Shown here one piece after another: positions 3,831-28,019 of a stretch of DNA of 34,499 nt. Source of the stretch: Candidatus Gastranaerophilales bacterium (GTDB lineage: Bacteria; Cyanobacteriota; Vampirovibrionia; Gastranaerophilales; Gastranaerophilaceae); contig JAEEHV010000039.1 in NCBI GenBank assembly GCA_016280955.1, positions 1 to 34,499 on the forward strand. Direction: 5' to 3'. The notes under the pieces were generated by a model. That model saw only the letters and a list, made by a program, of their open reading frames with translations. It was not told the DNA's origin and made no database searches. Made by a program: the position numbers and the translations under genes. The first letter of the stretch is position 1, and the number at the start of each line of letters is the position of its first letter.

Positions 3831-3952
3831 TACAGAACGAATGAATAGATTGGAGGTAATGTTGAGCATTATTATTAACTGAATATCATAATACTACAAG
3901 CATAGAATCCCATCTATTTTGTTACATACCAATCAGAAAGTAGGTGCGATTT
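3831..3952 (+). promoter_or_regulatory. Long 5' leader of the toxin gene with a short possible leader peptide
   Basis: About 120 bases separate the promoter from the toxin start. A GGAGG at 3852-3856 is followed by a very short frame (TTG at 3862 or ATG at 3859, ending TGA 3880-3882) that would encode only 6-8 residues rich in Ile. AATAGAT near 3844 can pair with ATCTATT near 3913, which would hide this ribosome site. No antitoxin-sized gene is present. A regulatory leader is an inference from spacing and pairing. Confidence 0.35.
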
Positions 3953-4342
3953 ATGCTAACCAGAACAAAGGTCATTCCTCGCTGCTTTGACATTTGGATG
4001 TGCAATATGGCTAATTCTGAAGGTAGTGTTCAAGGTGGCTATCGTCCTGCTTTGGTGCTATCTAACGACAGAAATAATACATATAGCCCAACGGTAAACG
4101 TTATCCCGATTACGTCCAAAATGAATAAGAGGAACTTACCAATTCACGTTGAGATTTGGAATCATAGTCGATTTGGTTTGAAAACACCGAGTACGTTAAT
4201 GGTAGAACAGATTAGAACAATCCCGATTGAAGCACTTGATAAGTGTATCGGACGCATTGACGATAAAGGGCTTTTGAACAAGATTAAAAATGCTATGGCT
4301 ATTCAATTCCCAATTTTAGCATTGGTATCACAACTCTCTTAA
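3953..4342 (+). CDS. PemK/MazF-family endoribonuclease toxin
   Basis: About 129 residues, using the ATG at 3953. It is preceded by TAGGTG six bases upstream, better than the GTG at 3944, which overlaps that ribosome site. Family hallmarks are YRPALVLSND near residue 31, VIPITSK, a basic stretch before PIHVEI, PSTLMVEQIRTI and IGRI. These match the MazF/PemK fold, which cleaves mRNA at short sequences and is usually paired with an upstream antitoxin. None is seen here; the upstream interval holds only a very short frame. It may be a solitary toxin used against the host, or the antitoxin may be encoded elsewhere. Confidence 0.8.
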   Translation: MLTRTKVIPRCFDIWMCNMANSEGSVQGGYRPALVLSNDRNNTYSPTVNVIPITSKMNKRNLPIHVEIWNHSRFGLKTPSTLMVEQIRTIPIEALDKCIGRIDDKGLLNKIKNAMAIQFPILALVSQLS

Positions 4343-4350: not shown

Positions 4351-4379
4351 TTGACAAATCTGGAATAGTTTGCTATAAT
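4351..4379 (+). promoter_or_regulatory. Promoter of the recombinase-like gene
   Basis: TTGACA (4351-4356), 17-bp spacer, TATAAT (4374-4379) with TGC before the -10. The -10 overlaps the ATG at 4378, so translation must begin downstream, at the ATG at 4399. Unlike the other promoters in the window it has only a weak TTAAACTTTTG-like sequence upstream. Confidence 0.75.
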
Positions 4380-4398
4380 GAAAGCGAGGTGTAGTGTT

Positions 4399-5370
4399 AT
4401 GGCTAAAATTACAACAAAAGAACTATTAGACAAATATTTTGATGAAGTTGCTCCAAAATCATATCATACTTGGAGAAAAGCACTTGATAAGCCTGAAATG
4501 TACAATTACATTGACAAAATCGGTGTTGAATTAGTTGATATGGACGTTGAGCAAATGATAGGGCTGATAAAAGCGTTAAATCCTTCATCAACAACTGTGC
4601 AACACTTTAGAACGGTGTTACAACAAATAATCGTTTACTATATTGACAATATCGAGCTTGTTAGAAATCCTTTTACCAATCCAAAATTAAAAGGAACACA
4701 ATTACAGAATCTTTTGATTGAGGAAAAGGCTGTATTAACTTGGGATATGGTTAAAAAGGCAATAGCAAAGTTAAAAGCGCAGACAAACACACAGAAATCT
4801 GAATATGTTGAACTGATTGCAGAATTGTTCCATTGCGGATTTTGTGACGCAGATGAAATAATGCAAATCAGAGAGAAAAACATTGATTTTCAGGATATGT
4901 CTATTGGAATTATCGGAAAGACAATTAAGTTGTCACAAAGATGTGCCGAGCTGTTACCTAAAGTCCATAATTATCATTTATCTTCACACAAAAGGTATGT
5001 ATATGCGATTTATCGTGATAATTATATCCCTATGTACATTACGGCTGAAAAGGAAGATTCTATCAACGAATACACTCCTGATGTGTATAAGACAAGGCTA
5101 TACAAACAGTTGACAAACAATTTATTTGATTCAAACGGTGATTACATCAATTATTCTTCCCTTTATTGGCTTGGATTCTATGATTATCTCGTTGAAAATA
5201 CAAGTAAAGAGTTTGTAGATGAATTTGTCAATACAGAATGTGTCAAAGTCGGCAAATCAAAGAACAAAGACAACGATTTGCAGACAATATTGAATTATGC
5301 GAAGTTGTATGGTGTAAAAACTGAATCAATTACTGTCATTAAGCGGTTTTTGAAGCGATTTGCAAGGTAA
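4399..5370 (+). CDS. Recombinase-fold protein lacking catalytic residues
   Basis: About 323 residues from the ATG at 4399. This start has GAGGTG eight bases upstream; the in-frame ATG at 4378 is inside the -10 box. The N-terminal part (about 1-105) resembles the helical core-binding domain of tyrosine recombinases. The segment ELFHCGFCDADEIMQIREKN aligns in outline with the first catalytic-domain helix pair (x-TGLR-x-x-EL-x-x-L), but the catalytic Arg is replaced. No HxxR, second His or RY nucleophile follows. I infer a degenerate recombinase kept for DNA binding, perhaps as an architectural or regulatory partner of the intact recombinase. It ends at a hairpin terminator. Confidence 0.55.
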   Translation: MAKITTKELLDKYFDEVAPKSYHTWRKALDKPEMYNYIDKIGVELVDMDVEQMIGLIKALNPSSTTVQHFRTVLQQIIVYYIDNIELVRNPFTNPKLKGTQLQNLLIEEKAVLTWDMVKKAIAKLKAQTNTQKSEYVELIAELFHCGFCDADEIMQIREKNIDFQDMSIGIIGKTIKLSQRCAELLPKVHNYHLSSHKRYVYAIYRDNYIPMYITAEKEDSINEYTPDVYKTRLYKQLTNNLFDSNGDYINYSSLYWLGFYDYLVENTSKEFVDEFVNTECVKVGKSKNKDNDLQTILNYAKLYGVKTESITVIKRFLKRFAR

Positions 5371-6787: not shown

Positions 6788-7852
6788 ATGATTAAGTATT
6801 ACGACAAGGAAAACAAATTTGTTGAGATTTTCAATCCGCAGACAGGCTTTTATCTGCGTAGCGGTATTCTTGACGAAAACGGCAAAGACACAGGCGTTGA
6901 CCCGTTTATGAGGAACTTTCCGCAACTTATTGATGTTGGCATTATGGAAAGATGTGTTTGCGCTCATAAATGCAAGGTAGATTGTTACCAAAAGGCGGTT
7001 TGCAGAACAGGCGAAAATATGTCTTTGGAAAATTACAAGAAAATTTTAGAACAATGCAAAGGCAAAACCTTTCAGTATGCCCTCGGCGGTGCTGGCGACC
7101 CTGATACTCACGAGAATTTTGAGGAAATTCTCAAATTAAGCCGTGAGTATGGTATTGTTCCTAACTTTACCACATCAGGTATTACAATGACAGAGGAAAA
7201 GGCTAAACTTTGCAAGGAATATTGCGGCGCAGTTGCAGTAAGTTATCACGGTGAACCTTATACACAGAGAGCTATCGGAATGCTGATTGACGCTGGCGTT
7301 AAGACTAATATTCATTATGTTCTCGGTAAAAACTCTATCGACCACGCAATTAAAACGCTTAAAGACGGTGGATTTGGTGAGGATATCAACGCTGTAGTAT
7401 TTCTTCTTTACAAGCCTATCGGACTTGGCAAAATGGGAAACATCTTAACCGTTGACAATCCAAAGGTGAATGAATTTTTCAACGTCATTGACAACGGAAA
7501 TTTTCATCATAAGATTGGTTTTGATTCTTGTACTTGTGCAGGAATTGTCAACTACACAAAGCAAATCAATATGGATAGCATTGATTATTGCGAGGGCGGC
7601 AGATATTCAATGTATATTGACGCGCAGATGAACGCCATGCCGTGTTCTTTTGGTAATCAGAATCCGAAGTATTTTGTTAGTCTGAACGACCATACGATTG
7701 AAGAAGCGTGGAATAGCTCTGTTTTTGAGGAATTTAGAGATTCATTCCGCAATTCTTGTAAAGGTTGCAAAAATCGTTCTATGTGTGGCGGTGGTTGTCC
7801 TATTTGCCGTGATATTGTTCTTTGCAACAGAAAGGAAAAAGATTTAGTATGA
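6788..7852 (+). CDS. Radical SAM enzyme with SPASM-like C-terminal cysteine cluster, probable maturase of the TNSSSSSF proteins
   Basis: A 354-residue protein with a strong AAGGAG site. Cysteines 56, 58, 62, 66 and 72 lie in ERCVCAHKCKVDCYQKAVC; C58-x3-C62-x3-C66 probably supplies the Fe-S cluster that cleaves S-adenosylmethionine, with spacing unlike the usual C-x3-C-x2-C. Downstream come the radical SAM barrel elements ALGGAGDPD, FTTSGI, VAVSYHG and NIHYVLG. The C-terminus has Cys 324, 327, 333, 337, 340 and 346 (CKGCKNRSMCGGGCPIC), typical of SPASM or related domains that bind auxiliary Fe-S clusters in peptide-modifying enzymes. I recall this subfamily from Firmicutes and their phages as unnamed. 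Ten proteins with one shared N-terminus follow it, so a post-translational modification of those is the natural inference. Confidence 0.87.
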   Translation: MIKYYDKENKFVEIFNPQTGFYLRSGILDENGKDTGVDPFMRNFPQLIDVGIMERCVCAHKCKVDCYQKAVCRTGENMSLENYKKILEQCKGKTFQYALGGAGDPDTHENFEEILKLSREYGIVPNFTTSGITMTEEKAKLCKEYCGAVAVSYHGEPYTQRAIGMLIDAGVKTNIHYVLGKNSIDHAIKTLKDGGFGEDINAVVFLLYKPIGLGKMGNILTVDNPKVNEFFNVIDNGNFHHKIGFDSCTCAGIVNYTKQINMDSIDYCEGGRYSMYIDAQMNAMPCSFGNQNPKYFVSLNDHTIEEAWNSSVFEEFRDSFRNSCKGCKNRSMCGGGCPICRDIVLCNRKEKDLV

Positions 7853-8322
7853 GCGAATTTAATGTAAATGAGTATCTACAGACTTATGTTTCTTCCACTC
7901 CGCAGGAAATGAAAAGCAATACAATGGTTTTGTTCTTTGCTTTTCGTGACGGTGAAGGAATCAAAGAAACGGTATTAAAGAATTTTCATAAAGATATTTA
8001 CACCGACAAGGTTTTTGAAAATGTTGTTTCTGTAATCTCGGAAGGCAAACATCACTGTGAAGCTGAAACTATCGACGGCTCTATTTACAAATTTCTAAAA
8101 AAATCTTGGGAATTTTGTCTGGAATCTGATGATATTGTTAAGAGGCTTGTTAATGTTGAAGCCAATTTCATCAAAAAAGAAAACTATACGAACTTTTATA
8201 TTGTTAAATACAAGGTGACAAATGACGAAATGAATAAGGTTGTTTTGGATATTCTTATGGATTTAGATTGTTGCTTACTTGGCGGTTATGTGCTTAAATC
8301 TGCGGAGAGGACTGTGCTATGA
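7849..8322 (+). CDS. Hypothetical partner between the radical SAM gene and the array, 157 aa
   Basis: Starts at the ATG at 7849, overlapping the radical SAM stop by four bases (ATGA), and overlaps the first array gene the same way at its end, so the three are coupled. It lacks the TNSSSSSF N-terminus. The protein is soluble, with an N-terminal FNVNEYLQTYVSSTPQEM helix, a central beta region and several cysteines (for example WEFCLE and LDCCLLGG). The tight coupling suggests a role with the enzyme, such as substrate presentation or regulation. No domain is recognised, and this role is inference only. Confidence 0.6.
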   Translation: MSEFNVNEYLQTYVSSTPQEMKSNTMVLFFAFRDGEGIKETVLKNFHKDIYTDKVFENVVSVISEGKHHCEAETIDGSIYKFLKKSWEFCLESDDIVKRLVNVEANFIKKENYTNFYIVKYKVTNDEMNKVVLDILMDLDCCLLGGYVLKSAERTVL

Positions 8323-8783
8323 AAATCAGAACAGACTTTGTAACCAATTCAAGCAGTAGCAGTTTTATTTGTGAAATCTGCAAGTACGAAACAAGCGGTT
8401 ATGATATGTCATTATCTGAAGCAGGAATGGTTTGTTGCGAAAACGGTCATATATTCTGCGAAGAACATTTATTATTGCCGAGCAGAGATGAACTAATTAA
8501 AAGAGCTAAAAAGCGTAATAAAATTGACAATTCACACGTTAGGTTTTTGAGTGATTTGGATATTCTTTATACGTGGATTATTGAAAATGGAAGTCATTAT
8601 GATATTCCGCAAGAATATTGTCCAATTTGCCAAATGACCTGTTGCACCGAAACTGATATGTTAAAATATTTGCTAAAAGAAGCTCATTTAGATGAAGAAG
8701 CAATTTTGAAAACTTGGAAGAAACGCTTTGGAAATTATGATAAACTAAAGGAATATTTATTGGAGAAGAAAGATGAAAGTTAG
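8319..8783 (+). CDS. TNSSSSSF array member 1, zinc-finger-like body
   Basis: Begins MKIRTDFVTNSSSSSF, the shared tag. The body carries clustered metal-ligand residues: Cys18-x2-Cys21, Cys39-Cys40, His44, Cys47 and His50, then Cys101-x2-Cys104 (YCPIC) and a Cys pair shortly after, suggesting two zinc-binding knuckles. A basic helical tail follows (ILKTWKKRFGNYDKLKEYL). It may bind nucleic acid or protein. The ATG overlaps the upstream stop (ATGA) and its own end overlaps member 2 by eleven bases. It is the only member with such a cysteine-rich body. Confidence 0.8.
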   Translation: MKIRTDFVTNSSSSSFICEICKYETSGYDMSLSEAGMVCCENGHIFCEEHLLLPSRDELIKRAKKRNKIDNSHVRFLSDLDILYTWIIENGSHYDIPQEYCPICQMTCCTETDMLKYLLKEAHLDEEAILKTWKKRFGNYDKLKEYLLEKKDES

Positions 8784-9288
8784 AACTGATTTTGTAACAA
8801 ATTCAAGCAGTAGTAGTTTTATTCTTGCATTTAATTCTAATGATGATATAGACAAGATAATTCAAGATAGCGTTGAATGTTATAGTCTTTTAGATTCAGT
8901 TAGAGAATACAAAAAGTACAAACAAGCTATAATTGACTTGCTAAAATCAAGTTTAAGGACACAAGTTGATGTTAGTAAAATAGAAGATATTGTAAGAGAA
9001 GAATATCATTTTATTGCTGAATATACTGTTATGGATAAATACGAAAGAGCGAACCGATACGAAGATAATGTGTATACTAAATCTTGGAATTACGCAAAAT
9101 CAGAGCAAGGGCAAAAAGAGATTGAAAATCTTATACAAAAAGCTATCCAAAGAGTAAAAGACGCAATAACAGACAAAGATTTAGTTTATCTTGTGTCTTT
9201 TAGTGATGATGATATTATCGGTCAGCAGTTGGAACATTATATTTTGCCTCATTGTGAATTTACAAAAGGTGTTTATAGCCACCATTAA
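8773..9288 (+). CDS. TNSSSSSF array member 2
   Basis: Begins MKVRTDFVTNSSSSSF followed by ILAFNSNDD. The 171-residue body is soluble, charged and mainly helical, and ends YILPHCEFTKGVYSHH. Member 3 ends with a similar TRYSHH, and the segment before it is also related (SFSDDDIIGQQLEHY in this protein, SIADDTEVESFLEHD in member 3), so these two are sisters. The gene starts inside the end of member 1, with GGAGAAG as ribosome site. No enzymatic motif is seen. Confidence 0.8.
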   Translation: MKVRTDFVTNSSSSSFILAFNSNDDIDKIIQDSVECYSLLDSVREYKKYKQAIIDLLKSSLRTQVDVSKIEDIVREEYHFIAEYTVMDKYERANRYEDNVYTKSWNYAKSEQGQKEIENLIQKAIQRVKDAITDKDLVYLVSFSDDDIIGQQLEHYILPHCEFTKGVYSHH

Positions 9289-9297
9289 GGAGAGAAT

Positions 9298-9672
9298 ATG
9301 AAAGTTAGGACAGACTTTGTAACCAACAGCAGTTCAAGTAGCTTTATCATTGGTTACAATTCAAGTGAATATGATAATGCTTTTGATGTAATCAGAGGAA
9401 ACATTGACGATTATTTCACCGATAAATTAGTAGATGATTTGCTTGAATATGCTCACGGCGTTGTTGATGTAGATGACGTTGGCAAAATTATTGAAAGTGA
9501 TAGAGCGCATATTAATAAAGAAGTAAACCGTATAAAGGATATTGCTAAAGAAAAGGGATTTGATAAACTTTTCAAAATTAGTATTGCAGATGATACAGAA
9601 GTTGAATCCTTTTTAGAGCACGATTATTTCCCTTATTTGGATTGTACTGTAACACGTTATAGTCATCATTAA
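9298..9672 (+). CDS. TNSSSSSF array member 3
   Basis: Begins MKVRTDFVTNSSSSSF then IIGYNSSEYDNAFDVI. The 124-residue body is acidic and helical and closely parallels member 2 at its C-terminus, ending TVTRYSHH. AAGGAGAG precedes the ATG. The serine codons are AGC-AGT-TCA-AGT-AGC, different in order from member 2, although the proteins are related. Function unknown; likely a substrate of the operon's radical SAM enzyme. Confidence 0.8.
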   Translation: MKVRTDFVTNSSSSSFIIGYNSSEYDNAFDVIRGNIDDYFTDKLVDDLLEYAHGVVDVDDVGKIIESDRAHINKEVNRIKDIAKEKGFDKLFKISIADDTEVESFLEHDYFPYLDCTVTRYSHH

Positions 9673-9681
9673 GGAGTAATT

Positions 9682-9846
9682 ATGCTTTGGTTTGGTGAAA
9701 GAAAAGAGTTAGAAAACAAATACTATGAATGGGTTGAAAAGGAATCAGTAAACGATTGTCCGTTCAATGTGATTTGTTTCTTGCAAATTAACAGTTTAAT
9801 TGACGTTGAAAAGGCTCGGAAGTTTATCAGAGGTGATAGCAAATGA
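9682..9846 (+). CDS. Small protein between array members, 54 aa
   Basis: An ATG at 9682 with AAGGAGTAATT upstream opens a 54-codon frame that ends TGA at 9844-9846, overlapping member 4 by four bases. It begins MLWFGERKELENKYYEWVEK and ends LIDVEKARKFIRGDSK. It has no TNSSSSSF tag. The DCPFNVICFLQINSLIDVEK region is a pattern I recall from small proteins in related phages. The good ribosome site and coupled overlap support it as a real gene. Confidence 0.6.
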   Translation: MLWFGERKELENKYYEWVEKESVNDCPFNVICFLQINSLIDVEKARKFIRGDSK

Positions 9847-10256
9847 AATTTCGCAGCGATTTTGTAACAAATAGTTCATCATCAAGTTTTGTAGTTGATA
9901 AACGCGGTATATCAGCAACACAATTAAGGGCTATTGAGAATCATATTGAGGTTGGAAAGAAACTTGACAGACTTGGTTATGGCGATTTTGGTTCTTATGA
10001 TAAGACAGATGAATGGTATGTGCGTGACGGCGAAAACAATTCAGTTATATTAAGCACATATATGGATAACTTTAATATGTATAGTTTTCTAAAAGCTATT
10101 GGCGTATCTGAAAATAACATTTACAATTCCGCTGATGAAATCACATATAGACAAACGGAAATGAATGATAGTCTTTTAGGTGACATATTAACCGATTTAG
10201 AAGATGAAGATTCCGAGCCTGATGATTCAAGAAATAATGAATGGTGGGGATTTTAA
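9843..10256 (+). CDS. TNSSSSSF array member 4
   Basis: Begins MKFRSDFVTNSSSSSF followed by VVDKRGISATQLRAIENHIE. The 137-residue body is acidic, with a very acidic C-terminal stretch (TDLEDEDSEPDDS) and the end NNEWWGF. Serine codons are AGT-TCA-TCA-TCA-AGT. The start overlaps the small upstream gene (ATGA), and its stop overlaps the next start (TAATG). The KRG-IS-x-x-Q-x-x-x-IENH region resembles a stretch in member 9 (DIDAEKVKYIENHF), hinting at a common ancestor for parts of the bodies. Confidence 0.78.
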   Translation: MKFRSDFVTNSSSSSFVVDKRGISATQLRAIENHIEVGKKLDRLGYGDFGSYDKTDEWYVRDGENNSVILSTYMDNFNMYSFLKAIGVSENNIYNSADEITYRQTEMNDSLLGDILTDLEDEDSEPDDSRNNEWWGF

Positions 10257-10633
10257 TGAAAATTCGTTGTGATTTTGTGACTAATAGTAGTTCAAGTTCT
10301 TATATTATTGCAAGACGAAAAGATTTCAAGCGAGATGATATATTACAGTTTTTGAAGGAAAATTCTGATTGGTATGAAAAGATTATAGCAGACAGGTTGA
10401 AATGTTGGAGCTATTATTATAAGAGCCGTGAAGATGTTGTGGCTGAAATCGGTGATAAAGAATCTTGCATTGAGAATGTCGCAACAGATATTATTAGTTT
10501 GGGCGATATGGAAATAGGTGATTATCTGGTTTCTACCATTAGAGTTTGTTCGGAAGATATTGATTTGTTTGGCGAGTTTATTGAATATGCTCCAACAAAT
10601 GATAACTTCAAGAAGAAATGCGTAGGTGACTAA
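10256..10633 (+). CDS. TNSSSSSF array member 5
   Basis: Begins MKIRCDFVTNSSSSSY from the ATG at 10256, which overlaps the preceding stop by one base. An upstream in-frame start at 10241 lies inside the previous gene and would bury the tag, so it is rejected. This member has Cys at position 5 and Tyr instead of Phe after the serines. The 125-residue body has RRKDFKRDDILQFL and an acidic, aromatic remainder. Function unknown. Confidence 0.78.
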   Translation: MKIRCDFVTNSSSSSYIIARRKDFKRDDILQFLKENSDWYEKIIADRLKCWSYYYKSREDVVAEIGDKESCIENVATDIISLGDMEIGDYLVSTIRVCSEDIDLFGEFIEYAPTNDNFKKKCVGD

Positions 10634-10638
10634 TAAAT

Positions 10639-10830
10639 ATGAAAATGGTTCAAGTTGAGTGTATATATGCAGGAACAGATATTGAATTACAAAAAAGAAT
10701 AAATAATCTTTGTGAAACGCTTGCTATTAATGGTGATGATGTTATCAATGTTTCTTATGCAATACATTCAGGTAGAGTATTTCCTATGTACGCTATGGTT
10801 GTATATAAAACAGATAGAGGTGAATTATGA
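10639..10830 (+). CDS. Cse60-like small protein
   Basis: A 63-residue protein (MKMVQVECIYAGTDIELQKR..., ending YAMVVYKTDRGEL). The pattern of VQV-x-x-x at the start, a central helix with IN-x-L, VI-(D/N)-V-x-(Y/F)-S and a final (A/T)-MI-VYK resembles the Cse60 family of small sporulation-associated proteins. A paralogue lies at 20602-20799. In Bacillus Cse60 is sigma-E controlled with unclear function; here it is a phage gene. It lacks the TNSSSSSF tag and sits inside the array, overlapping member 6 by four bases. Confidence 0.6.
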   Translation: MKMVQVECIYAGTDIELQKRINNLCETLAINGDDVINVSYAIHSGRVFPMYAMVVYKTDRGEL

Positions 10831-11249
10831 AATTAAGAAATGATTTCGTAACTAATAGTTCAAGTAGTAGTTTCGTAGTTGCATACCGTGATTTTAACGA
10901 ACAAGAGTGTAAAAATGATTGGGTTCTTGACGCATATAAAACGATTATTAACGGAATCCTTGACATTAGCGGTAATGATGATTATTCTGATACCGAAAAG
11001 GCTATAAAGATTTCAACCAAAGAAGAGTTTGATAATCATTTGCTCGAATATTTCTATACCGATAATATTGAAGAATTATTTGAAGATGAAGAATATAGTC
11101 GTGAAAAGTATAATGAGGTTCTTGATTACTTAAACAAAGGGTTTTCAATATTTGTAAAACGCATTGATTATAGTGATGAAATACTTGAAAAACTATTTAA
11201 GATAATCGCACATTCCAATGATAATTTTGTTATTTTAGAGGACGAATAA
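10827..11249 (+). CDS. TNSSSSSF array member 6
   Basis: Begins MKLRNDFVTNSSSSSF then VVAYRDFNEQE. The 140-residue acidic body ends with RIDYSDEILEKLFKII and NDNFVILEDE. Member 8 has the matching SVDYSDDALEDMIREL and DDFILVKTEY, and both have a GN-x-x-(Y/F)-x-x-T-x-(A/P) region and a (G/C)-x-(S/T)-x-x-x-K-x-x-DYSD arrangement, so these two are paralogues over their full length. The gene starts by ATGA overlap with the Cse60-like gene. Confidence 0.8.
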   Translation: MKLRNDFVTNSSSSSFVVAYRDFNEQECKNDWVLDAYKTIINGILDISGNDDYSDTEKAIKISTKEEFDNHLLEYFYTDNIEELFEDEEYSREKYNEVLDYLNKGFSIFVKRIDYSDEILEKLFKIIAHSNDNFVILEDE

Positions 11250-11250
11250 A

Positions 11251-11871
11251 ATGAAATTTAGAAACGATTTCGTGACAAATAGTAGCAGTTCATCTTATAT
11301 CATCAGCAAGGAAACTGGTGGACTTCAAACTAAAGAGCAAATCTATCAGTATATAAGAGATTTGTTTCTTGAATGGCAGCGGAAGAAAAAGCTGATATGT
11401 GAGTTTTACAATTTTGCTATTCCGTTGGAAAAGTTAAAGTGGAACGAAATGAAAGAAATCGAAAAGACCGTTGAGAATGTTTTTGGTTTCGATATTTGGG
11501 ATTCACACTGTTTTGATACTGATTGGGCTAAATGCTCAACGTATTTAGAGTTTGAAAACTATTGGAACAAAAAGACAGAAGGAAAGAAATATCCTGATTG
11601 GATTTTTAGAATAATAGACGCTGACGAGTTTAATAAATACGGTGTCCCTTCGTGGTATTTTCCTTGTTTGGAGGATAATTGGGAAGGACTTGATTGTGAA
11701 ACTTATTGCGATTATTATAACACAGATAAATGCGTTTCAGGGATTGCAAAAGAGCCTATAGAAAACATTTTGGGGAAATACTGTGTATACAGTGAAAGTG
11801 GCTATCTTCCGTTCTATGTTGTTGAAAAACTGTCGATAAAATGTAAATTCTATTGTCACCATATGGGTTAA
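11251..11871 (+). CDS. TNSSSSSF array member 7, longest body
   Basis: Begins MKFRNDFVTNSSSSSY, with Tyr after the serines as in member 5. At 206 residues it is the longest of the ten. The body is rich in Trp and Tyr (for example FLEWQRKKKLICEFYNF, YWNKKTEGKKYPDWIF) and has several cysteines near the C-terminus (CETYCDYYNTDKC). It ends KCKFYCHHMG, recalling the His-His ends of members 2 and 3. No family is recognised. The start is one base after the previous stop. Confidence 0.78.
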   Translation: MKFRNDFVTNSSSSSYIISKETGGLQTKEQIYQYIRDLFLEWQRKKKLICEFYNFAIPLEKLKWNEMKEIEKTVENVFGFDIWDSHCFDTDWAKCSTYLEFENYWNKKTEGKKYPDWIFRIIDADEFNKYGVPSWYFPCLEDNWEGLDCETYCDYYNTDKCVSGIAKEPIENILGKYCVYSESGYLPFYVVEKLSIKCKFYCHHMG

Positions 11872-11880
11872 AGGAGATTT

Positions 11881-12312
11881 ATGAAATTAAGAAGCGATTT
11901 TGTTACGAATAGTAGCAGTAGCAGTTTTATTGTCGGGTTTAAGTGTTATCCAGAGGACACTGACGATAAGTACAGCAAGTTCTTTTCAAAGATTATCAGT
12001 ATGATTTTAGATTCAGAGGGTAATTGTTTTAAAACATCACCCGCGAAAATCTATAACAATCTGCACGAGCTACGCAAGGGATTCTATAAAGACTATAAGA
12101 ATTGGTGCGGAAACGAACACGATAGTCTTGATGATATGCTTGCTAATAACGAGTGGATTAAAAAAGAATACGACGCTTGTGTAGAAACTTTGGAAAGAGG
12201 ATATTCAGTTGCTATTAAGTCTGTTGACTACAGCGACGACGCATTAGAAGATATGATTAGGGAATTACCGTATATTACCGACGATTTCATTCTTGTAAAG
12301 ACGGAGTATTGA
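11881..12312 (+). CDS. TNSSSSSF array member 8, paralogue of member 6
   Basis: Begins MKLRSDFVTNSSSSSF then IVGFKCYPEDTDDKY. The 143-residue body parallels member 6, with the conserved DYSDDALE near residue 120 and a final DDFILVKTEY. AAGGAG precedes the ATG by six bases. The serine codons are AGT-AGC-AGT-AGC-AGT, whereas member 6 uses AGT-TCA-AGT-AGT-AGT, so even close paralogues differ in the tag at the DNA level while the protein tag is unchanged. Confidence 0.8.
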   Translation: MKLRSDFVTNSSSSSFIVGFKCYPEDTDDKYSKFFSKIISMILDSEGNCFKTSPAKIYNNLHELRKGFYKDYKNWCGNEHDSLDDMLANNEWIKKEYDACVETLERGYSVAIKSVDYSDDALEDMIRELPYITDDFILVKTEY

Positions 12313-12313
12313 T

Positions 12314-12631
12314 ATGAAAGTAAGAACAGATTTTGTCACCAATTCAAGTAGCAGTAGCTTTGTTATTTGCAAGAAAGATATTGACGCAGAAAAAGTTAAA
12401 TACATAGAAAATCACTTTGTACACGTCACATCAGAGGAATTATTAAGAGATATTCAAGACTTCGATATTTATTATGCCGTATACTTCCTTGTTGACTATC
12501 AGCCAGAAGATGAATATATGCACATTTGGGTAAGGCGTGATGAAGCTATGGACGATGATAATATTGACGATGTATTATGGGATAATGACGTGTCAGACGA
12601 AGTAAGCCCTAAATTCTATTATCATTTTTGA
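12314..12631 (+). CDS. TNSSSSSF array member 9
   Basis: Begins MKVRTDFVTNSSSSSF then VICKKDIDAEKVKYIENHFV. At 105 residues it is the shortest member, so its body is about 85 residues. It is acidic and ends SPKFYYHF, another aromatic-His C-terminus. The start is one base after the previous stop, with GGAG upstream. Function unknown. Confidence 0.78.
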   Translation: MKVRTDFVTNSSSSSFVICKKDIDAEKVKYIENHFVHVTSEELLRDIQDFDIYYAVYFLVDYQPEDEYMHIWVRRDEAMDDDNIDDVLWDNDVSDEVSPKFYYHF

Positions 12632-12645
12632 TTGAGGTAAACATT

Positions 12646-13080
12646 ATGAAGATTAGAACAGATTTTGTAACCAACAGTTCATCATCAAGTTTCATTATAG
12701 TTACTAAAGTAAATGTTACAGATGAATTAAAAGAATATATGAAAACGGAATATGGCAAGTATGGAGAAAAGTTAATTACCACCATTCCACAAAAAGGTAC
12801 AGATATTATAAAAGGATTCGAGTATGATGAAACCGAGGGTATATATTTTGAGGAGGGTTTTGGTGTCATTGAAAATTTATGCGATATTTATTTTGGCGAA
12901 AGCGACGCAGCGGATATAATTAAAAAAATTGCCAAAGACCCCGAAGCGTGGTATCTCTTCTCACGTGTTTATACTCAAGATACAGAAGGTGGCGTTTATC
13001 CCGAAGATAATTTGTGGCTTCAATGCCATTTACCAAACGGTTATTCTGAAGAAGTCTATGAAACTTCCCCCGATTGGTAA
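12646..13080 (+). CDS. TNSSSSSF array member 10, last of the array
   Basis: Begins MKIRTDFVTNSSSSSF from the ATG at 12646, which has GAGG ten bases upstream. A TTG at 12628 would overlap the previous gene and is rejected. The 144-residue body has a helical segment near 25-40, a glycine-rich aromatic stretch (EGIYFEEGFGVIENL) and a Trp-containing end (DNLWLQCHLPNGY, SPDW). Its stop is followed directly by the promoter of the tRNA region, so it is the end of the operon. Confidence 0.78.
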   Translation: MKIRTDFVTNSSSSSFIIVTKVNVTDELKEYMKTEYGKYGEKLITTIPQKGTDIIKGFEYDETEGIYFEEGFGVIENLCDIYFGESDAADIIKKIAKDPEAWYLFSRVYTQDTEGGVYPEDNLWLQCHLPNGYSEEVYETSPDW

Positions 13081-13535: not shown

Positions 13536-13611
13536 TGGGATGTAGCCAAGCGGTTAAGGCAACGGTCTTTGACACCGTGATTCATAGGTTCAATCCCTAT
13601 CATCCCAGCCA
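13536..13611 (+). tRNA. tRNA-Gln (TTG)
   Basis: Acceptor TGGGATG (13536-13542) pairs with CATCCCA (13601-13607), followed by discriminator G and an encoded CCA. The anticodon loop CTTTGAC gives anticodon TTG. The D-arm AGCCAAGCGGTTAAGGC and T-arm ATAGG-TTCAATC-CCTAT are canonical. Confidence 0.92.
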
Positions 13612-13845
13612 GACGGGTCAAACTGCCCGTAGCCAAAAAGAGTTTGGGTTTGCGGTTTGTTTTAGAGAAATCGTGGTTTTACCATTTTTACCAATATAGC
13701 TATTGCAAAAAAGGCGTTTGACAAGCGGTGGAATTATACCACAACATTTAAGATTTCGTGTGGCAACGGATATTAAAAAATGTAAGAGTTATGTTGGCAA
13801 CATTTTGTTTGGATTTTCGCGGAATCACAAACAATAATAGCCGAA

Positions 13846-13901
13846 GCGTGTCTTGTAGTTAAAGACGCATACAGCAATTTTCTATTAATTTATGAAAATT
13901 G
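13846..13901 (+). repeat. CAGCAA element E1 (permuted form)
   Basis: GCGTGTCTT (13846-13854) pairs with AAAGACGC (13861-13868), allowing one bulged G, followed directly by ATACAGCAATTTT. CAATTTTC (13875-13882) pairs perfectly with GAAAATTG (13894-13901). The order of stem halves is the permuted one seen in the tRNA insertion at 17695-17741. No flanking tRNA halves are recognisable. Confidence 0.45.
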
Positions 13902-13963
13902 TAAAAAAGATGGTCTGCACACACCTTGTACGCTTTCGGGCGCATTAAAGTAGTGTATAGGTC

Positions 13964-14005
13964 GGCGGCTACCTGTTATCAAGGGGCGCAATGATAGAAG
14001 CCGCC
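13964..14005 (+). ncRNA. Stem-loop GGCGGCT/AGCCGCC
   Basis: A perfect 7-bp stem, GGCGGCT (13964-13970) with AGCCGCC (13999-14005), encloses a second stem TATCA (13977-13981) with TGATA (13992-13996) and a ten-base loop AGGGGCGCAA. This two-part hairpin is GC-rich for its surroundings. The purine-rich loop could be a pairing or protein-binding site. Identity unknown. Confidence 0.4.
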
Positions 14006-14020
14006 AGATTAAATTAGAAC

Positions 14021-14070
14021 GTGTCTTGTGGAGTAAGACACACAACAGCAAATTTACTATAATGAATTAA
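14021..14070 (+). repeat. CAGCAA element E2 (permuted form)
   Basis: GTGTCTT (14021-14027) pairs perfectly with AAGACAC (14035-14041), followed by ACAACAGCAAATTTAC. The layout (stem, short loop, stem, CAGCAAATT) matches E1 and the tRNA insertion. No recognisable tRNA halves flank it. Confidence 0.45.
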
Positions 14071-14166
14071 GACGAAAAAGAAGGTTTCCTGATTTCTCCT
14101 TGCGGCGTGTCATTCGTGCCGCGCCGTGAAAAATCATTATCTATTTACTTGTTGACAAATTTTAAG

Positions 14167-14248
14167 GAGAGGGCATTTTGTGGCGGTTCGCAAAAGCTCA
14201 ACCATTGTATATCATAATTTCTTTTTGTGCAACCGTCATTGCCCTCTC
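14167..14248 (+). ncRNA. Long bipartite hairpin upstream of tRNA-Leu
   Basis: GAGAGGGCA (14167-14175) pairs with TGCCCTCTC (14240-14248), and inside it TGGCGGTT (14181-14188) pairs with AACCGTCA (14231-14238). GCAAAAG and CTTTTTGTGC can extend the helix toward the apex. An 82-nt hairpin of this quality only 14 bases before a tRNA suggests a structured RNA or processing signal. Function unknown. Confidence 0.5.
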
Positions 14249-14262
14249 TGAAAACTAAATAC

Positions 14263-14351
14263 GGGGAAGTAAGCAAGTGGTTAAAGCAAGGTATAGCAAA
14301 AGTACCGCCCGTTAGCGTTGGGCTTCGTTGGTTCAAATCCAACCTTCCCCA
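14263..14351 (+). tRNA. tRNA-Leu, probably (CAA), with unusual anticodon loop
   Basis: Acceptor GGGGAAG (14263-14269) pairs with CTTCCCC (14344-14350), discriminator A, no encoded CCA. A long variable arm (GCCC/GGGC) makes it a class II tRNA. The T-arm GTTGG-TTCAAAT-CCAAC is perfect. The anticodon stem GGTAT/GTACC leaves the loop AGCAAAA, so the anticodon would be CAA, but position 33 is G instead of the near-universal U. The discriminator A favours Leu over Ser. Confidence 0.75.
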
Positions 14352-14382
14352 TACCTTTCCCTCTAAACAAAAATACTCAAAT

Positions 14383-14457
14383 GCAGATATGATGTAGCTG
14401 GTAGCATATCAGCCTTCCAAGCTGAATGGGCGAGTTCAAATCTCGTTATCTGCTCCA
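14383..14457 (+). tRNA. tRNA-Gly (TCC)
   Basis: Acceptor GCAGATA (14383-14389) pairs with TATCTGC (14447-14453), discriminator T, encoded CCA. The anticodon loop CTTCCAA gives TCC. The T-arm CGAG-TTCAAAT-CTCG is canonical. Confidence 0.92.
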
Positions 14458-14460
14458 ATA

Positions 14461-14625
14461 CTGATTGAGCTGGTGAAAGACCCCACCAACTATAAGGTGT
14501 GAACTGTTCGGCTCGTATAATCAGCAGCGTAGTCGATAGCACTACGGTCAAGAAGCTATCCGCGATTGATAGTTGACGTAGGGATTTGACAACCAATAAC
14601 CATCTGACACTTTGGAAAGACAAGG
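14461..14625 (+). ncRNA. Structured spacer between tRNA-Gly and tRNA-Glu
   Basis: CTGATT-GAGC (14461-14470) pairs with GCTC and AATCAG (14511-14524), forming a closed 64-nt structure that encloses TGGTG/CACCA. Two further hairpins follow: CGTAGT/ACTACG and AGCTATC/GATAGTT, each with a seven-base loop. At 14610-14625 CTTTG-GAAAGA-CAAGG is one of the GGA-x-AGAC hairpins that precede tRNAs in this region. The first structure could be a very degenerate tRNA. Confidence 0.4.
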
Positions 14626-14633
14626 GTGTACAC

Positions 14634-14709
14634 GGCGGGTTAGGCGAGCGGTGAAGCCACCACCCTTTCAAGGTGGTAATCATGAGTTCAAATCTCATAC
14701 CCGTCACCA
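14634..14709 (+). tRNA. tRNA-Glu (TTC)
   Basis: Acceptor GGCGGGT (14634-14640) pairs with ACCCGTC (14699-14705) with one G-U, discriminator A, encoded CCA. The anticodon stem CCACC/GGTGG holds loop CTTTCAA, anticodon TTC. The T-arm ATGAG-TTCAAAT-CTCAT is perfect. Confidence 0.92.
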
Positions 14710-14846
14710 ATAGTGGTATTTTGTTAAAGTTCTGCACTGTTATGTTCTAAATAGCGCTTATGGAATAATAACGATAATATGAACTGAATCCCATCTGATA
14801 TATGTGGGTAAACGCGAATTAGCTGTTCGTATATATCAATGTATAT

Positions 14847-14923
14847 GTGCTATTAACTCAGTTTGGTAGAGTAAACGACTTTTAATCGTTAAGCCCGGAG
14901 TTCGAGCCTCCGATAGCACACCA
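14847..14923 (+). tRNA. tRNA-Lys (TTT)
   Basis: Acceptor GTGCTAT (14847-14853) pairs with ATAGCAC (14913-14919), discriminator A, encoded CCA. The anticodon stem ACGA/TCGT holds loop CTTTTAA, anticodon TTT. The T-loop TTCGAGC is canonical. The same CTTTTAA loop occurs in the hairpin element E6 at 17829-17835. Confidence 0.92.
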
Positions 14924-14936
14924 TGAAGTTATAAAT

Positions 14937-14997
14937 AAGGCGCACACAGCAATTATAAAAGGGATAAACTGATAATTTATTAACCTATATGCGCCTT
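14937..14997 (+). ncRNA. Anticodon-loop-bearing element E3 (loop CTGATAA)
   Basis: AAGGCGCA (14937-14944) pairs perfectly with TGCGCCTT (14990-14997). CACAGCAATTATAAAAGGG follows the first strand. Inside, ATAAA (14964-14968) and TTTAT (14976-14980) form a 5-bp stem around CTGATAA, exactly the form of a tRNA-Ile (GAT) anticodon loop. It lacks D and T arms. It is the first of two tandem elements ahead of the DUF2828 gene. Confidence 0.55.
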
Positions 14998-15007
14998 GAA
15001 AAACCAA

Positions 15008-15067
15008 AGGCACTTTCAGCAAATTTTCATACATAAAAGTCTTGAAACTTTACACCTCAAAGTGTCT
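15008..15067 (+). ncRNA. Anticodon-loop-bearing element E4 (loop CTTGAA)
   Basis: AGGCACTTT (15008-15016) pairs with AAAGTGTCT (15059-15067) with one G-U. CAGCAAATTTTC follows the first strand. AAAGT (15036-15040) and ACTTT (15047-15051) enclose CTTGAA; with the next A this reads CTTGAAA, the loop of the tRNA-Ser (TGA) at 17101. It lies 28 bases before the DUF2828 start and so could also act as its 5' leader. Confidence 0.5.
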
Positions 15068-15095
15068 TGCAACAAAAAAGAAATGAGGTATTGAA

Positions 15096-16628
15096 ATGAC
15101 ATTTTTTGATGAATTGCAAAAGAACTTAAACGACATTAACAACCTTCAGCTCACCGAAAATGGTGCTATTGGTTACAAATCAACAGGTAAAACTCTGCTT
15201 GATATGAATTTCTCAATTCCTAAATATCGCAATACAAGTGACGCTGAGATTGCTGAAATCTATAATAAGGCGTATAGTGAGAATCCTTTGTACGCTATTC
15301 TATGGGCTTTCTTTGCGCGTGATATTCGTGGCGGTTTGGGCGAAAGAAGATTATTTAGGATTTTGTTCCGTAGTCTTTGTGTGAACAATCCTGATGTAGC
15401 AAGACAGCTTGTCAAGCTCGTTTCAGAATACGGTCGTTGGGACGATTTGGTTTATTCCACCGAGAATACCGCTGTTTGGAATGACGCTGTTAATGTTATC
15501 AAGGAGCAACTCTTGACCGACACGGCTAATATGAAGAGCGGAAAGCCTATCACACTTCTTGGTAAGTGGTTGCCGAGTGAGCGCACATCAAGCCAAAAAA
15601 CAAGGAAAATGGCGCGTAAATTGGCAAGAGCAATGGGTATTCCTTTCAAAAGCTACAACAAAATGCTTGTTGCACTTCGCGGATATTCCAATGTTGTTGA
15701 GGTTAAAATGAGCGCAAAGGAATGGAAAGCTATTGACTATTCTGCCGTTCCGTCCTATGCTAACCTCCGATACAATAACGCTTTTCTCCGCAATGACGAG
15801 GAAAGGCGTAGAGCGTATCTGAACGCGCTTACCAAAGGCGAAACCAAAATCAATGCTTCAACTGCATTTCCTCACGATATTGTTAGGAAATATGCAAATA
15901 ACTATGCGGTTGATACCACACTTGAAGAAATGTGGAAAGCGTTGCCTGATATGGGCGGTTTGGACAACGTGATTGTAGTTTCGGACGGTTCAGCCTCTAT
16001 GACTTGGAGTGGAAACAATAACGCTCGTCCTCTTGATATTGCTTATGCCCTATCAATTTACTGTTCGGAGCATTGTAAAGGTGAGTTCAAATATAAGTAT
16101 ATCACCTTCTCTACCAATCCGAAGTTAGTTGACTTAACCAAGTGCAACACACTCCACGATAAGTTAAGGGTTGCAAGAAGCCACTCCGATTGTAGTAATA
16201 CCAATATTGAAGCGGTATTCGATATTATCCTTGATACTGCTGTTGAATCAAAGGCTACGCAAGAGGATATTCCCGAAACTGTGCTTATCATTTCCGATAT
16301 GGAATTTGATAATTGTGTTGGTTCTTATCGCAGCGGTTATGTCAAAGACGATTCAGCTTTGTTTAATGTGATTGCAAAGCGTTTTGAAAAGGCTGGATAT
16401 AAAATGCCGAGAATCGTTTTTTGGAATGTTTCTTCACGCACGGGTACAATCCCTATGAAGGAAAATGAACTTGGTGTAACGCTTGTCAGTGGCTATTCGG
16501 TGTCTATCTTCAAAATGGTAGCCAACGGAGAAACTGACCCATACAAGAATCTTGTCAAGACTATCACTTCGGAGAGGTATCAGCCTGTTCTTGAAGCGGT
16601 TAAGCCAGTGCTTGATTGGTGTAACTAA
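15096..16628 (+). CDS. DUF2828-family protein with VWA domain, Ro60/TROVE-like
   Basis: A 510-residue protein. The N-terminal part is helical with AFFARDIRGGLGERRLFR near residues 70-86, a hallmark I associate with DUF2828. The C-terminal part is a von Willebrand A domain: VVSDGSASM near residue 297 is the metal-binding DxSxS motif, followed by YITFSTNP, a TNIEAVFDIIL segment, LIISDMEFDN and RIVFWNVSSRTG. This two-part architecture resembles TROVE/Ro60 proteins, which bind Y RNAs and misfolded RNAs. The gene lies inside the tRNA region, after two structured elements. A role in RNA binding or quality control is inferred. A clear AATGAGG site precedes the ATG. Confidence 0.82.
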   Translation: MTFFDELQKNLNDINNLQLTENGAIGYKSTGKTLLDMNFSIPKYRNTSDAEIAEIYNKAYSENPLYAILWAFFARDIRGGLGERRLFRILFRSLCVNNPDVARQLVKLVSEYGRWDDLVYSTENTAVWNDAVNVIKEQLLTDTANMKSGKPITLLGKWLPSERTSSQKTRKMARKLARAMGIPFKSYNKMLVALRGYSNVVEVKMSAKEWKAIDYSAVPSYANLRYNNAFLRNDEERRRAYLNALTKGETKINASTAFPHDIVRKYANNYAVDTTLEEMWKALPDMGGLDNVIVVSDGSASMTWSGNNNARPLDIAYALSIYCSEHCKGEFKYKYITFSTNPKLVDLTKCNTLHDKLRVARSHSDCSNTNIEAVFDIILDTAVESKATQEDIPETVLIISDMEFDNCVGSYRSGYVKDDSALFNVIAKRFEKAGYKMPRIVFWNVSSRTGTIPMKENELGVTLVSGYSVSIFKMVANGETDPYKNLVKTITSERYQPVLEAVKPVLDWCN

Positions 16629-16632
16629 AAAT

Positions 16633-16684
16633 TCTAAAACTTATTAGAATTTAGCTTGACATTTATGCTTGTGTGTGCTATAAT
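16633..16684 (+). promoter_or_regulatory. Second tRNA-region promoter with upstream box
   Basis: TTGACA (16656-16661), 17-bp spacer, TATAAT (16679-16684) with TGC as extended -10. TCTAAAACTTATTAGAATTT (16633-16652) lies directly upstream and matches the box at 2471 almost exactly. It drives the second group of tRNAs. Confidence 0.85.
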
Positions 16685-16706
16685 AAGTATTGTAAGGTAA
16701 TAAGAG

Positions 16707-16768
16707 GAAATCGGCTCGGATTCAATGAGCCATTTCTTCAAACCTTGCAAGAGCTTATTAGAATTTTA
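16707..16768 (+). promoter_or_regulatory. Leader hairpin and downstream TTAGAA box
   Basis: GAAAT and GGCTC (16707-16717, one bulged C) pair with GAGCC-ATTTC (16727-16736), a 10-bp stem. It is followed by TTCAAA and the box AGAGCTTATTAGAATTTT (about 16750-16767). The order is the same as at 13162-13216. Confidence 0.5.
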
Positions 16769-16931
16769 TAAAAAATCAATAACTAAATCCTAATCTACCA
16801 AATCACCTCTTTGTTTCTGTTTTGTGTGTCCTTTGTTGTTTTTTCATTTTTTCTCCTTTCTTTATATATAGGTAGATTGAAACCTTGTAAAAGGGCGTAA
16901 AGTTAAGCGAAACGGTCTTTACGATATATAT
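16769..16931 (+). other. Pyrimidine-rich spacer flanked by an inverted repeat
   Basis: AATCTACC (16792-16799) and GGTAGATT (16871-16878) form a perfect 8-bp inverted repeat around a ~65-base tract that is nearly free of A and rich in T and C. On the minus strand the tract contains AAAGGAG, five A and ATG, opening a 14-codon basic frame (16847 to 16803). No larger gene is visible. The tract could be a binding site or a loop of the RNA leader. Confidence 0.35.
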
Positions 16932-17017
16932 GCGGATATGGCGAAATTGGAATACGCGCAAGATTTAGGTTCTTGTATCTTTATGATGTGTGGGTTCAAC
17001 CCCCACTATCCGTACCA
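16932..17017 (+). tRNA. tRNA-Leu (TAG)
   Basis: Acceptor GCGGATA (16932-16938) pairs with TATCCGT (17007-17013) with a terminal G-U, discriminator A, encoded CCA. The stem CAAGA/TCTTG holds loop TTTAGGT, anticodon TAG. A class II variable arm is present. The T-arm GTGGG-TTCAACC-CCCAC is canonical. Confidence 0.9.
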
Positions 17018-17050
17018 GAGCGAAATGCTCAACGTGCAATACAAAATATG

Positions 17051-17094: not shown

Positions 17095-17100
17095 AAATTT

Positions 17101-17193: not shown

Positions 17194-17206
17194 TTAGGAG
17201 TATCAA

Positions 17207-17858: not shown

Positions 17859-17867
17859 GAAATAATA

Positions 17868-26907: not shown

Positions 26908-27126
26908 ATGGATTATATTAAATGGTCTGAAGAATATGCTGAAACCGCAGCCCAATGTGAGAAAATGGTTAATATGCTTATTCAGAGAAAAAATGAAATT
27001 AATAATATAAAAGTTCAAGAATCAATAGATACTAAAATTCAAATGTATCGAGCACTAACAAGGATGTGTACAAATATTTCTTCACAGTTGAAATGTCGGG
27101 TGAGAAGGAGCGAGGTGCAAGAGTGA
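26908..27126 (+). CDS. Small helical protein, 72 aa
   Basis: Start at ATG 26908 or the TTG at 26899; AGAGG at 26891-26895 fits the ATG loosely and is too close to the TTG. The protein is mostly one helix: MDYIKWSEEYAETAAQCEKM, then IQMYRALTRMCTNISSQLKCR. I recall comparable short coiled-coil proteins in Clostridial phages. It overlaps the next gene by four bases (GTGA). Confidence 0.55.
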   Translation: MDYIKWSEEYAETAAQCEKMVNMLIQRKNEINNIKVQESIDTKIQMYRALTRMCTNISSQLKCRVRRSEVQE

Positions 27127-28019
27127 GTCTTTTGGTTAAGGGTATGAATATGCCAAAATATAATGGTGAACACAAAGAATTTGATAGATATGGTTGTTAT
27201 TTAACCGTTTATAAGAATGGTAAAGTTGAACTTCATATCTGTGATTCTGATTATAATGTTATTGAAATCCCCACTCCTCACGGAAGATTAATTGATTCTG
27301 ATAAATTTCTTGAAATAAATAAAGAATTTGCTGATAGGGATTTTATTCATCCTAAATATGAAGCCACGCTCCGAGAGCTAATTGATGAAGCACCAACAAT
27401 ATTATCAGAAGAGAAACCATCATACAAAGATAAATTAGTAAATGAAAATGAATTAGTTTATCCATTTATGGCAAACGAGGACAGCTTTGTTAAAATACCA
27501 CCGTGTTTTTTAGAATATGCTGTTTCTGTTGATTACGGAACTGTCAATCCTTGCTCTGCTGGGCTTTGGGGATATTATAAAGATAGTTGGTATCGAATTG
27601 ACGAATACTTTTTTGATTCAAGAGTTGAAGGTTATCAAAGAACAGACGAAGAACATTATAACGCAATTTGTCAAATGATTGGCGACCGTGAAATAAAAGA
27701 ATTTATTATTGACCCATCTGCTGCAAGTTTTATTGAAATTGTTAAGAGAAAACAAAAATTTAATGTTGTTGTAGCTACCATTGGTAATATACATAGCAAT
27801 ATTAAGTTTGTTTATGATTCACTTAAAAACGGCAAAATTAAAATCTGCAAAAGTTGTAAAAATGCAAAACGTGAGTTTAGTCTATACAAATGGGAAACCA
27901 ACAGATACGGTGTTAAAGTGCCTGTAAAAGCGAACGACCATACAATAGACGATATACATTATTTTACAGCCACCGTGAGCAATTTACATTTGGTAAGGAT
28001 ATTGAACAATAAAAAATAA
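27123..28019 (+). CDS. Chimera: phage RLID domain fused to a terminase nuclease domain
   Basis: About 298 residues, starting at GTG 27123, which overlaps the previous stop (GTGA) and has GAGGTG upstream. Residues 1-100 contain LLVKGMNMPKY, CYLTVYKNGKVEL, PTPHGRLIDSD and DEAPTIL, a small phage domain. Residues ~130-298 are a terminase large-subunit nuclease domain: AVSVDYGTVNPCSAGLWGY, IDPSAASFIE, IKICKSCKNAKREFSLYKWE and KANDHTIDDIHYF, with acidic residues at the expected places. The ATPase domain is missing, so it cannot translocate DNA. It might be a decayed relic, a nuclease recruited for another role, or an accessory packaging nuclease. Confidence 0.7.
   Translation: MSLLVKGMNMPKYNGEHKEFDRYGCYLTVYKNGKVELHICDSDYNVIEIPTPHGRLIDSDKFLEINKEFADRDFIHPKYEATLRELIDEAPTILSEEKPSYKDKLVNENELVYPFMANEDSFVKIPPCFLEYAVSVDYGTVNPCSAGLWGYYKDSWYRIDEYFFDSRVEGYQRTDEEHYNAICQMIGDREIKEFIIDPSAASFIEIVKRKQKFNVVVATIGNIHSNIKFVYDSLKNGKIKICKSCKNAKREFSLYKWETNRYGVKVPVKANDHTIDDIHYFTATVSNLHLVRILNNKK

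Follow-up and report, generated by a model that had tools for sequence, protein, structure and literature searches.

Gene content of the locus

The DNA analysed in this study (the window, 34,499 nucleotides) is contig JAEEHV010000039.1 of a Candidatus Gastranaerophilales bacterium, one entire contig of a 2.78-Mb assembly (GCA_016280955.1). It carries a gene for a radical S-adenosylmethionine (SAM) enzyme with a SPASM domain and, downstream, an array of ten open reading frames (ORFs) that share an N-terminal segment, here called the tag, in front of the remainder of each protein, here called the body. The phage origin of the contig was recognised from genes for a terminase large subunit nuclease and integrase-like recombinases, together with clustered tRNA genes. 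Enzymes of this family were divided into types A and B, as described below. The features of the locus, in window coordinates, are as follows.

6788..7852, + strand: radical SAM/SPASM enzyme, 354 amino acids (aa), type A, presumed tag-modifying (Pfam, AlphaFold2 (AF2) model and fold matches)
7849..8322, + strand: translationally coupled ORF of 157 aa, no family (ATGA overlap)
8319..8783, + strand: tagged protein 1, 154 aa, predicted RING-like Cys/His zinc-binding body, family of 33
8773..9288, + strand: tagged protein 2, 171 aa, family of 33 (includes tagged protein 3), distant kin of phrog_7397
9298..9672, + strand: tagged protein 3, 124 aa, paralogue of tagged protein 2
9843..10256, + strand: tagged protein 4, 137 aa, family of 23
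10256..10633, + strand: tagged protein 5, 125 aa counted from the ATG at 10256
10639..10830, + strand: untagged ORF of 63 aa within the array, between tagged proteins 5 and 6
10827..11249, + strand: tagged protein 6, 140 aa, family of 26
11251..11871, + strand: tagged protein 7, 206 aa, family of 5
11881..12312, + strand: tagged protein 8, 143 aa, paralogue of tagged protein 6
12314..12631, + strand: tagged protein 9, 105 aa, family of 3
12646..13080, + strand: tagged protein 10, 144 aa, family of 8
27066..28019, + strand: nuclease part of the terminase large subunit, phage marker (PHROG terminase large subunit, 2.4e-17)

The radical SAM/SPASM gene is followed by the 157-aa ORF and then by the ten tagged ORFs, the last of which ends at 13080; ATGA overlaps are found at 7849 and 8319. 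The array looks like one operon, since its gaps range from -11 to +14 bp, with the sole exception of 170 bp (9673-9842), and purine-rich ribosome-binding sites lie upstream of most starts. Two called starts were corrected to internal ATG codons (10241 to 10256, and 12628 to 12646). A preliminary description of this DNA had placed ten consecutive tagged genes between 8319 and 13080. All ten tagged ORFs were found, but they are not strictly consecutive, as the untagged 63-aa ORF (10639-10830) intervenes. The same description had placed a radical SAM/SPASM-like enzyme and a coupled 157-aa protein directly upstream and had called some of the bodies paralogous; both statements agree with the overlaps, the Pfam matches given below and the pairs 8773/9298 and 10827/11881. 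No Pfam or NCBIfam family was matched by the 157-aa ORF, and no clear counterpart was seen beside the enzyme in four related loci (L129-L132). It was therefore kept out of the mechanism proposed below.

The N-terminal tag

The ten tags of the window, on ORFs starting at 8319 through 12646, all read MK[I/V/L/F]R[T/S/N/C]DFVTNSSSSS[F/Y], in agreement with the shared N-terminus first described (MK-x-R-x-DFVTNSSSSS-[F/Y]). A pattern scan of the genome found the strict tag confined to this array. The general form is MK-x-R-x-[D/G]-F-V-[T/S]-N-S-S-S-x-S-[F/Y]. In a relaxed logo built from 377 viral and 156 cellular tags, K2, R4, [F/Y/H]7, V8, [S/T]9, S11-S13 and [F/Y]16 were near-invariant and position 14 was the loosest; N10 was fixed by the search pattern. 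At viral loci the tag core started exactly at the N-terminus in 354 of 360 cases; a Met lay within 9 residues in the other six, and no tag was internal. An AlphaFold model of tagged protein 1 shows residues 1-10 as flexible (predicted local distance difference test (pLDDT) score of 52) and residues 13-17 as the first strand of the body.

Serine codons of both classes, TCN and AGY, are mixed in the ten window tags. A comparison of 177 different viral tag DNAs gave TCN shares of 37-45% and AGY shares of 55-63% for every one of the five serines. The constraint is on the peptide, because the two classes are mixed at the serines and a change from one to the other takes two base changes. A chance match or a low-complexity run of serines was ruled out with a backwards control pattern, which gave 0 matches in 50 viral records and 2 in 386 genomes. 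The motif string was absent from a literature search, a weak negative as most subscription papers lay outside its coverage.

The radical SAM/SPASM enzyme

The window enzyme was matched by the Pfam models SPASM (3.3e-8, 34.1 bits against a cut-off of 21.5) and Radical_SAM (2.7e-6, 28.1 bits, slightly below the cut-off of 29.5). It belongs to the radical SAM superfamily by the Pfam match and by its likeness to the folds of many radical SAM structures, and to the SPASM domain proteins by the Pfam match and a seven-cysteine pattern. The SPASM cysteines (C268, C286, C324-X2-C327-X5-C333-X3-C337 and C346) were invariant in an alignment of 16 type-A enzymes. Type A has the full SPASM pattern, as in the window; in type B the ligands of the last SPASM cluster are mostly lost.

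The AF2 model of the enzyme (pLDDT 92.9) gave SuiB as the top fold match (Z 26.4, 317 residues, root-mean-square deviation 3.3), followed by SkfB (Z 22.9), CteB (21.5), anSME (21.4), ChlB (20.8), PqqE (20.4) and TigE (19.4). These best matches are peptide or protein maturases. By sequence, the best match in the Protein Data Bank (PDB) was SkfB (5e-8), and none of the NCBIfam equivalog models reached its cut-off for this enzyme. About 40 residues ahead of the barrel form a conserved beta-hairpin in the model, which is covered by the SuiB alignment.

The [4Fe-4S] cysteine motif of radical SAM enzymes is usually CX3CX2C. In type A this cysteine loop is enlarged (C-x5-7-C-x3-8-C; C56/C58/C62/C66 in the window, residues 56-66), and the enzymes of the NACHT cassettes described below have the canonical CX3CX2C. 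In a related phage (IMGVR 3300032038_000305; L131:6438-8774) the enzyme is split by an intein with a LAGLIDADG domain.

Co-occurrence of enzyme and tag

Viral sequences were scanned with a strict DNA pattern, which gave at least 120 tag stretches on contigs of 5 to 504 kb. With a first enzyme profile (the window enzyme and four relatives), the enzyme was found inside 59 of 120 viral stretches, among the matches listed. A wider profile (37 rows) was then used on 50 further whole viral records, and the enzyme was detected in 28 at E<1e-50. It lay within 6 kb of a tag in 23 of these 28 records, against 4.0 expected by random placement (maximum 12 in 20,000 draws). No other neighbour family was found near viral tags in more than 6 loci.

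A cellular scan of named genomes gave at least 117 tag stretches, each of up to 8 kb, from Bacillota, Bacteroidota, Myxococcota, Spirochaetes, Cyanobacteriota, archaea and others. The enzyme was present in about 94 of 117 (among the matches listed), and the enzyme-tag pairs that were measured lay on the same strand (90/90) and mostly within 300 bp of each other (83/90). Two surveys were made independently of the tag. Across 386 genomes of the window's phylum the enzyme was found in 3, with an adjoining tagged gene in all 3; across 250 genomes of a second family it was found in 6, with an adjoining tagged gene in 5. Pooled, 8 of the 9 genomes with the enzyme had a tagged gene next to it. The preliminary description had made its proposal depend on a neighbourhood association of this kind, and a strong one is seen in phages, chromosomes and plasmids. 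At most of the viral and cellular tag loci listed, the enzyme adjoins the tag. There is good support for a functional link between the two.

Covariation of tag residue 9 with the enzyme

Next to type-A enzymes every one of 140 tags has Thr at residue 9, and next to type B every one of 134 has Ser; these counts include related sequences and are not numbers of independent events. By locus, the figures are 42 Thr and 0 Ser for type A, and 0 Thr and 38 Ser for type B. At residue 6, Asp prevails with type A and Gly with type B. Residue 9 changes 3 times on a tree of 167 enzymes versus 7, 4 and 9 times on the trees of three body families. On two of the three body trees the clustering of residue 9 was no greater, or just slightly greater, than with shuffled labels; two of the three are poorly resolved. 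In body family 1, three Thr tags lie within a well-supported Ser clade, and their records carry type-A enzymes. The tag letter thus tracks the enzyme, across many unrelated proteins of one genome together, as expected from a shared partner. The enzyme column that best follows the Thr or Ser of residue 9 is F11 of the window (Phe with T9, Tyr with S9), in the N-terminal hairpin; the signal is weak, and gives a weak hint that the hairpin contacts the tag.

Adjacency and covariation together agree with the usual mark of a pair of the kind known from ribosomally synthesised and post-translationally modified peptides (RiPPs), namely a dedicated substrate near the enzyme with a conserved recognition segment, the tagged proteins being the presumed substrates.

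Bodies of the tagged proteins

Viral tagged proteins comprise 377 distinct bodies in 144 unrelated families (among the matches listed), and the ten bodies of the window (105-206 aa) are mostly unrelated to one another, as first described. The body families are practically always tagged, since most of the 23 untagged hits to them were cut at the edge of a stretch or had a variant tag; clear untagged homologues were not seen at the viral loci, again among the matches listed. Several families recur across very different phages, such as that of tagged protein 1 (8319-8783; 33 members). Right behind its tag this protein has a conserved C-X2-C ... C-X3-H ... CP-x-C pattern, which resembles a RING or zinc-ribbon and suggests a RING-like zinc site. 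A fold search of the PDB with tagged protein 1 gave no convincing match, and no PDB sequence matches were found for the tagged proteins.

Cultured coliphages

Straboviridae of the RB43/KP15 groups carry a type-B enzyme (171-172 records) and one tagged protein (MKIRSGFVSNSSSSSFIV...; 175 records), and the two counts are equal for most host genera. The pair consists of RB43ORF169c (enzyme) and RB43ORF121c (tagged protein) in RB43. In Lw1, which is virulent on E. coli BL21(DE3) (PMC3861415), it consists of Lw1_gp161 (enzyme) and Lw1_gp116 (tagged protein). In both phages the two genes are about 20 kb apart, so the pairing is not merely an effect of adjacency. PHROG 7293 corresponds to the coliphage enzyme of this family (3e-270, KP15) and PHROG 7397 to the coliphage tagged protein (9e-118); both are filed under unknown function, without a mutual link in the library.

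NTPase cassettes in chromosomes and plasmids

A large NTPase and a protein of about 120-150 aa precede the tag-enzyme pair in about 20 cellular loci. The result is a four-gene cassette (L183, L298, L299, L331, L333-L335, L340-L343), apparently undescribed, of an Avs2-like NACHT/STAND NTPase, the protein of about 120-150 aa, a tagged protein of about 130-140 aa and the radical SAM enzyme; some cassettes have a gene of the metallo-beta-lactamase fold in front. The NTPases match PADLOC Avs2 models (1e-15 to 5e-29) and vary at the N-terminus (SMEK, trypsin-like, PNP, DUF4062). A STAND NTPase with varied effectors is characteristic of immunity systems, and the Avs-type feature, a large STAND NTPase with a variable N-terminal effector, was found in the chromosomal and plasmid cassettes; it does not apply to the window. 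In the Avs2-like cassettes, the marked protein probably forms one component of an immunity sensor or switch.

Annotated cassettes are those of plasmids pAt15955 and pAt2, Rhodobacter and Rhizobium; others were found in Chryseobacterium sp. ZHDP1, Arenibacter troitsensis, Sporomusa sp. KB1 and Acetatifactor muris. Many Lachnospiraceae chromosomes have a single tagged protein and the enzyme, without the NTPase. A literature search gave no papers linking SMEK with radical SAM, again weak as most subscription papers were outside its coverage. Further tagged proteins (L185, L226, L267, L240) lie near MoxR-like ATPase and DUF2201/vWA-like genes, domains that were named by eye.

Proposed function and alternatives

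We consider it likely that the radical SAM/SPASM enzyme modifies the shared N-terminal tag, so that enzyme and tagged proteins would form a tag-directed post-translational modification system. The enzyme would recognise the flexible N-terminal segment and would then modify it covalently, within the tag itself, and one enzyme would serve many unrelated folded proteins, ten of them in the window. The modified region would most likely be the near-invariant [F/Y/H]7-V-[T/S]9-N-S-S-S, of which residue 9 or residues next to it would lie in the active site. Our tentative guess for the chemistry, which could easily prove wrong, is an oxidation, an epimerisation or a C-C or C-O crosslink; a thioether is disfavoured because the tag is without Cys. 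The preliminary description had likewise likened the locus to a multi-substrate modification system. Of that proposal, the functional link between enzyme and tag stands, through the adjacency survey and the covariation at residue 9, and the covalent change and its site in the tag are put forward here as presumptions.

The evidence for a modification of the tag comes from sequence, neighbourhood and models, and several points weigh against it. No full-length RiPP recognition element is visible in the enzyme, to judge from its length of 354 aa and from the model. The perfect Thr/Ser split is also expected from shared ancestry of enzyme and tags; the mixing of residue 9 on the body trees, two of them poorly resolved, argues against shared ancestry alone. 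The enzyme is distant from the tags in 5 of 28 viral records (15-376 kb), as it is in the coliphages. The exception in the survey of 250 genomes is a truncated enzyme (G750) without a recognisable tag beside it. In a few records a tag was found and the enzyme was not detected; these are mostly fragments, but one (G635) is a genome assembly.

Of the other explanations, a role of the tag as a docking site only, with the enzyme acting on the bodies or on a third molecule, or with the tagged proteins delivering or regulating the enzyme, is unlikely, if the least so. Docking alone would account for the covariation of tag and enzyme, and RiPP enzymes bind a leader and commonly modify elsewhere; a modified site common to 144 unrelated body families (among the matches listed) is nevertheless hard to see. 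The chances are slim that the modified tag is instead cleaved off as a small modified peptide or cofactor, with the bodies as carriers. PQQ and mycofactocin are made from a precursor peptide, the enzyme is weakly similar to PqqE and the mycofactocin maturases, and its fold is PqqE-like. Against this, the bodies are themselves conserved as families, there would be no point in ten different carriers, and neither a protease nor any other family recurs beside the tag arrays.

Slimmer still is the prospect that the tag directs localisation, virion packaging or degradation, acts independently of the enzyme and lies near it fortuitously. Short N-terminal segments common to different proteins are typical of sorting signals, yet the enzyme is the sole recurrent neighbour across phages, chromosomes, plasmids and archaea, and residue 9 varies in step with the enzyme subtype. 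A DNA or RNA element, such as a recombination or regulatory site that encodes the peptide incidentally, was rejected as next to impossible. Similar 48-base stretches do recur within one operon, as such an element would, but the serine codon use contradicts it: TCN and AGY are swapped at all five serines (about 40/60) while the peptide is constant, and the segment is always in frame and at a start codon.

A wider version of the proposed modification system is speculative, and we think it improbable as a whole. The radical SAM enzyme would write the same mark on the N-terminal tag of more than 100 unrelated protein families as a general form of protein marking; the readers of the mark would include Avs2-like immune NTPases, and large phages would use or counter this reading through a writer and tagged arrays of their own.

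If the tag is modified as proposed, this would be an undescribed post-translational modification directed by a transferable N-terminal tag on folded proteins, in a system common to phages, bacteria, archaea and immunity-like operons. Hundreds of unnamed hypothetical proteins would become likely substrates of one enzyme family. The cultured coliphages RB43 and Lw1 offer a minimal version, one enzyme and one tagged protein, that is directly testable. Such a tag could find practical use as well, as a means of bringing a radical SAM enzyme to any protein.

Other features of the contig

Integrase-like proteins (2564-3571 and 4378-5370) bracket a PemK/MazF-like gene (3944-4342), and a similar order is seen in the relatives L129 and L131. 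A DUF2828/DUF7788 RNA-binding (TROVE/vWA-like) protein is encoded at 15096-16628, amid at least nine tRNA genes arrayed over 13536-18346. A 120-base tRNA match at 17666-17785 was called by Rfam and not reported by ARAGORN; it may contain an insert.

Comparison with known systems

One precedent is given by the FxSxx-COOH/rSAM-SPASM/STAND peptide-processing systems of VMAP-type conflict systems, in which a radical SAM/SPASM enzyme and a motif-bearing protein occur with STAND NTPases, and in which the motif lies in a C-terminal peptide freed by a metallopeptidase, mostly in actinobacteria (PMC7159879). The cassettes described here likewise combine STAND-type NTPases, in predicted immunity operons, with a radical SAM/SPASM enzyme and a small protein bearing a motif; they differ in that the tag is N-terminal, the NTPase is an Avs2-like NACHT protein and no peptidase is a recurrent neighbour. 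Membership in FxSxx/FxsB was rejected on the position of the tag (N-terminal in 354/360, never internal) and on the lack of a recurrent peptidase neighbour.

Another likeness is to the prochlorosins, small peptides of which many ProcA precursors are modified by ProcM, a LanM lanthipeptide synthetase. One enzyme serves many substrates that have a common N-terminal segment and a different remainder; unlike them, the present system has a radical SAM enzyme and folded proteins instead of LanM and small peptides. The anaerobic sulfatase-maturating enzyme anSME shares the SPASM fold (Z 21.4) and acts on a Ser or Cys of a protein substrate. It recognises C/S-x-P/A-x-R inside sulfatases, a motif that the tag does not have.

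A further comparison is with the radical SAM/SPASM maturases of RiPPs. The enzyme shares its overall fold over about 280-318 residues with SuiB (the streptide cyclase), SkfB, CteB, ChlB and TigE, type A retains the seven-cysteine SPASM pattern, and the enzyme gene adjoins short genes with a common N-terminal segment. It differs from these maturases in that no full recognition element domain is visible in it and that it does not reach the NCBIfam equivalog cut-offs, and in that its presumed substrates are proteins of 105-206 aa from many unrelated families, which retain the tag as their own N-terminus. By analogy, the enzyme would work in the manner of a RiPP maturase whose substrates have a leader in common, but on many unrelated folded proteins that keep this leader as an N-terminal tag.

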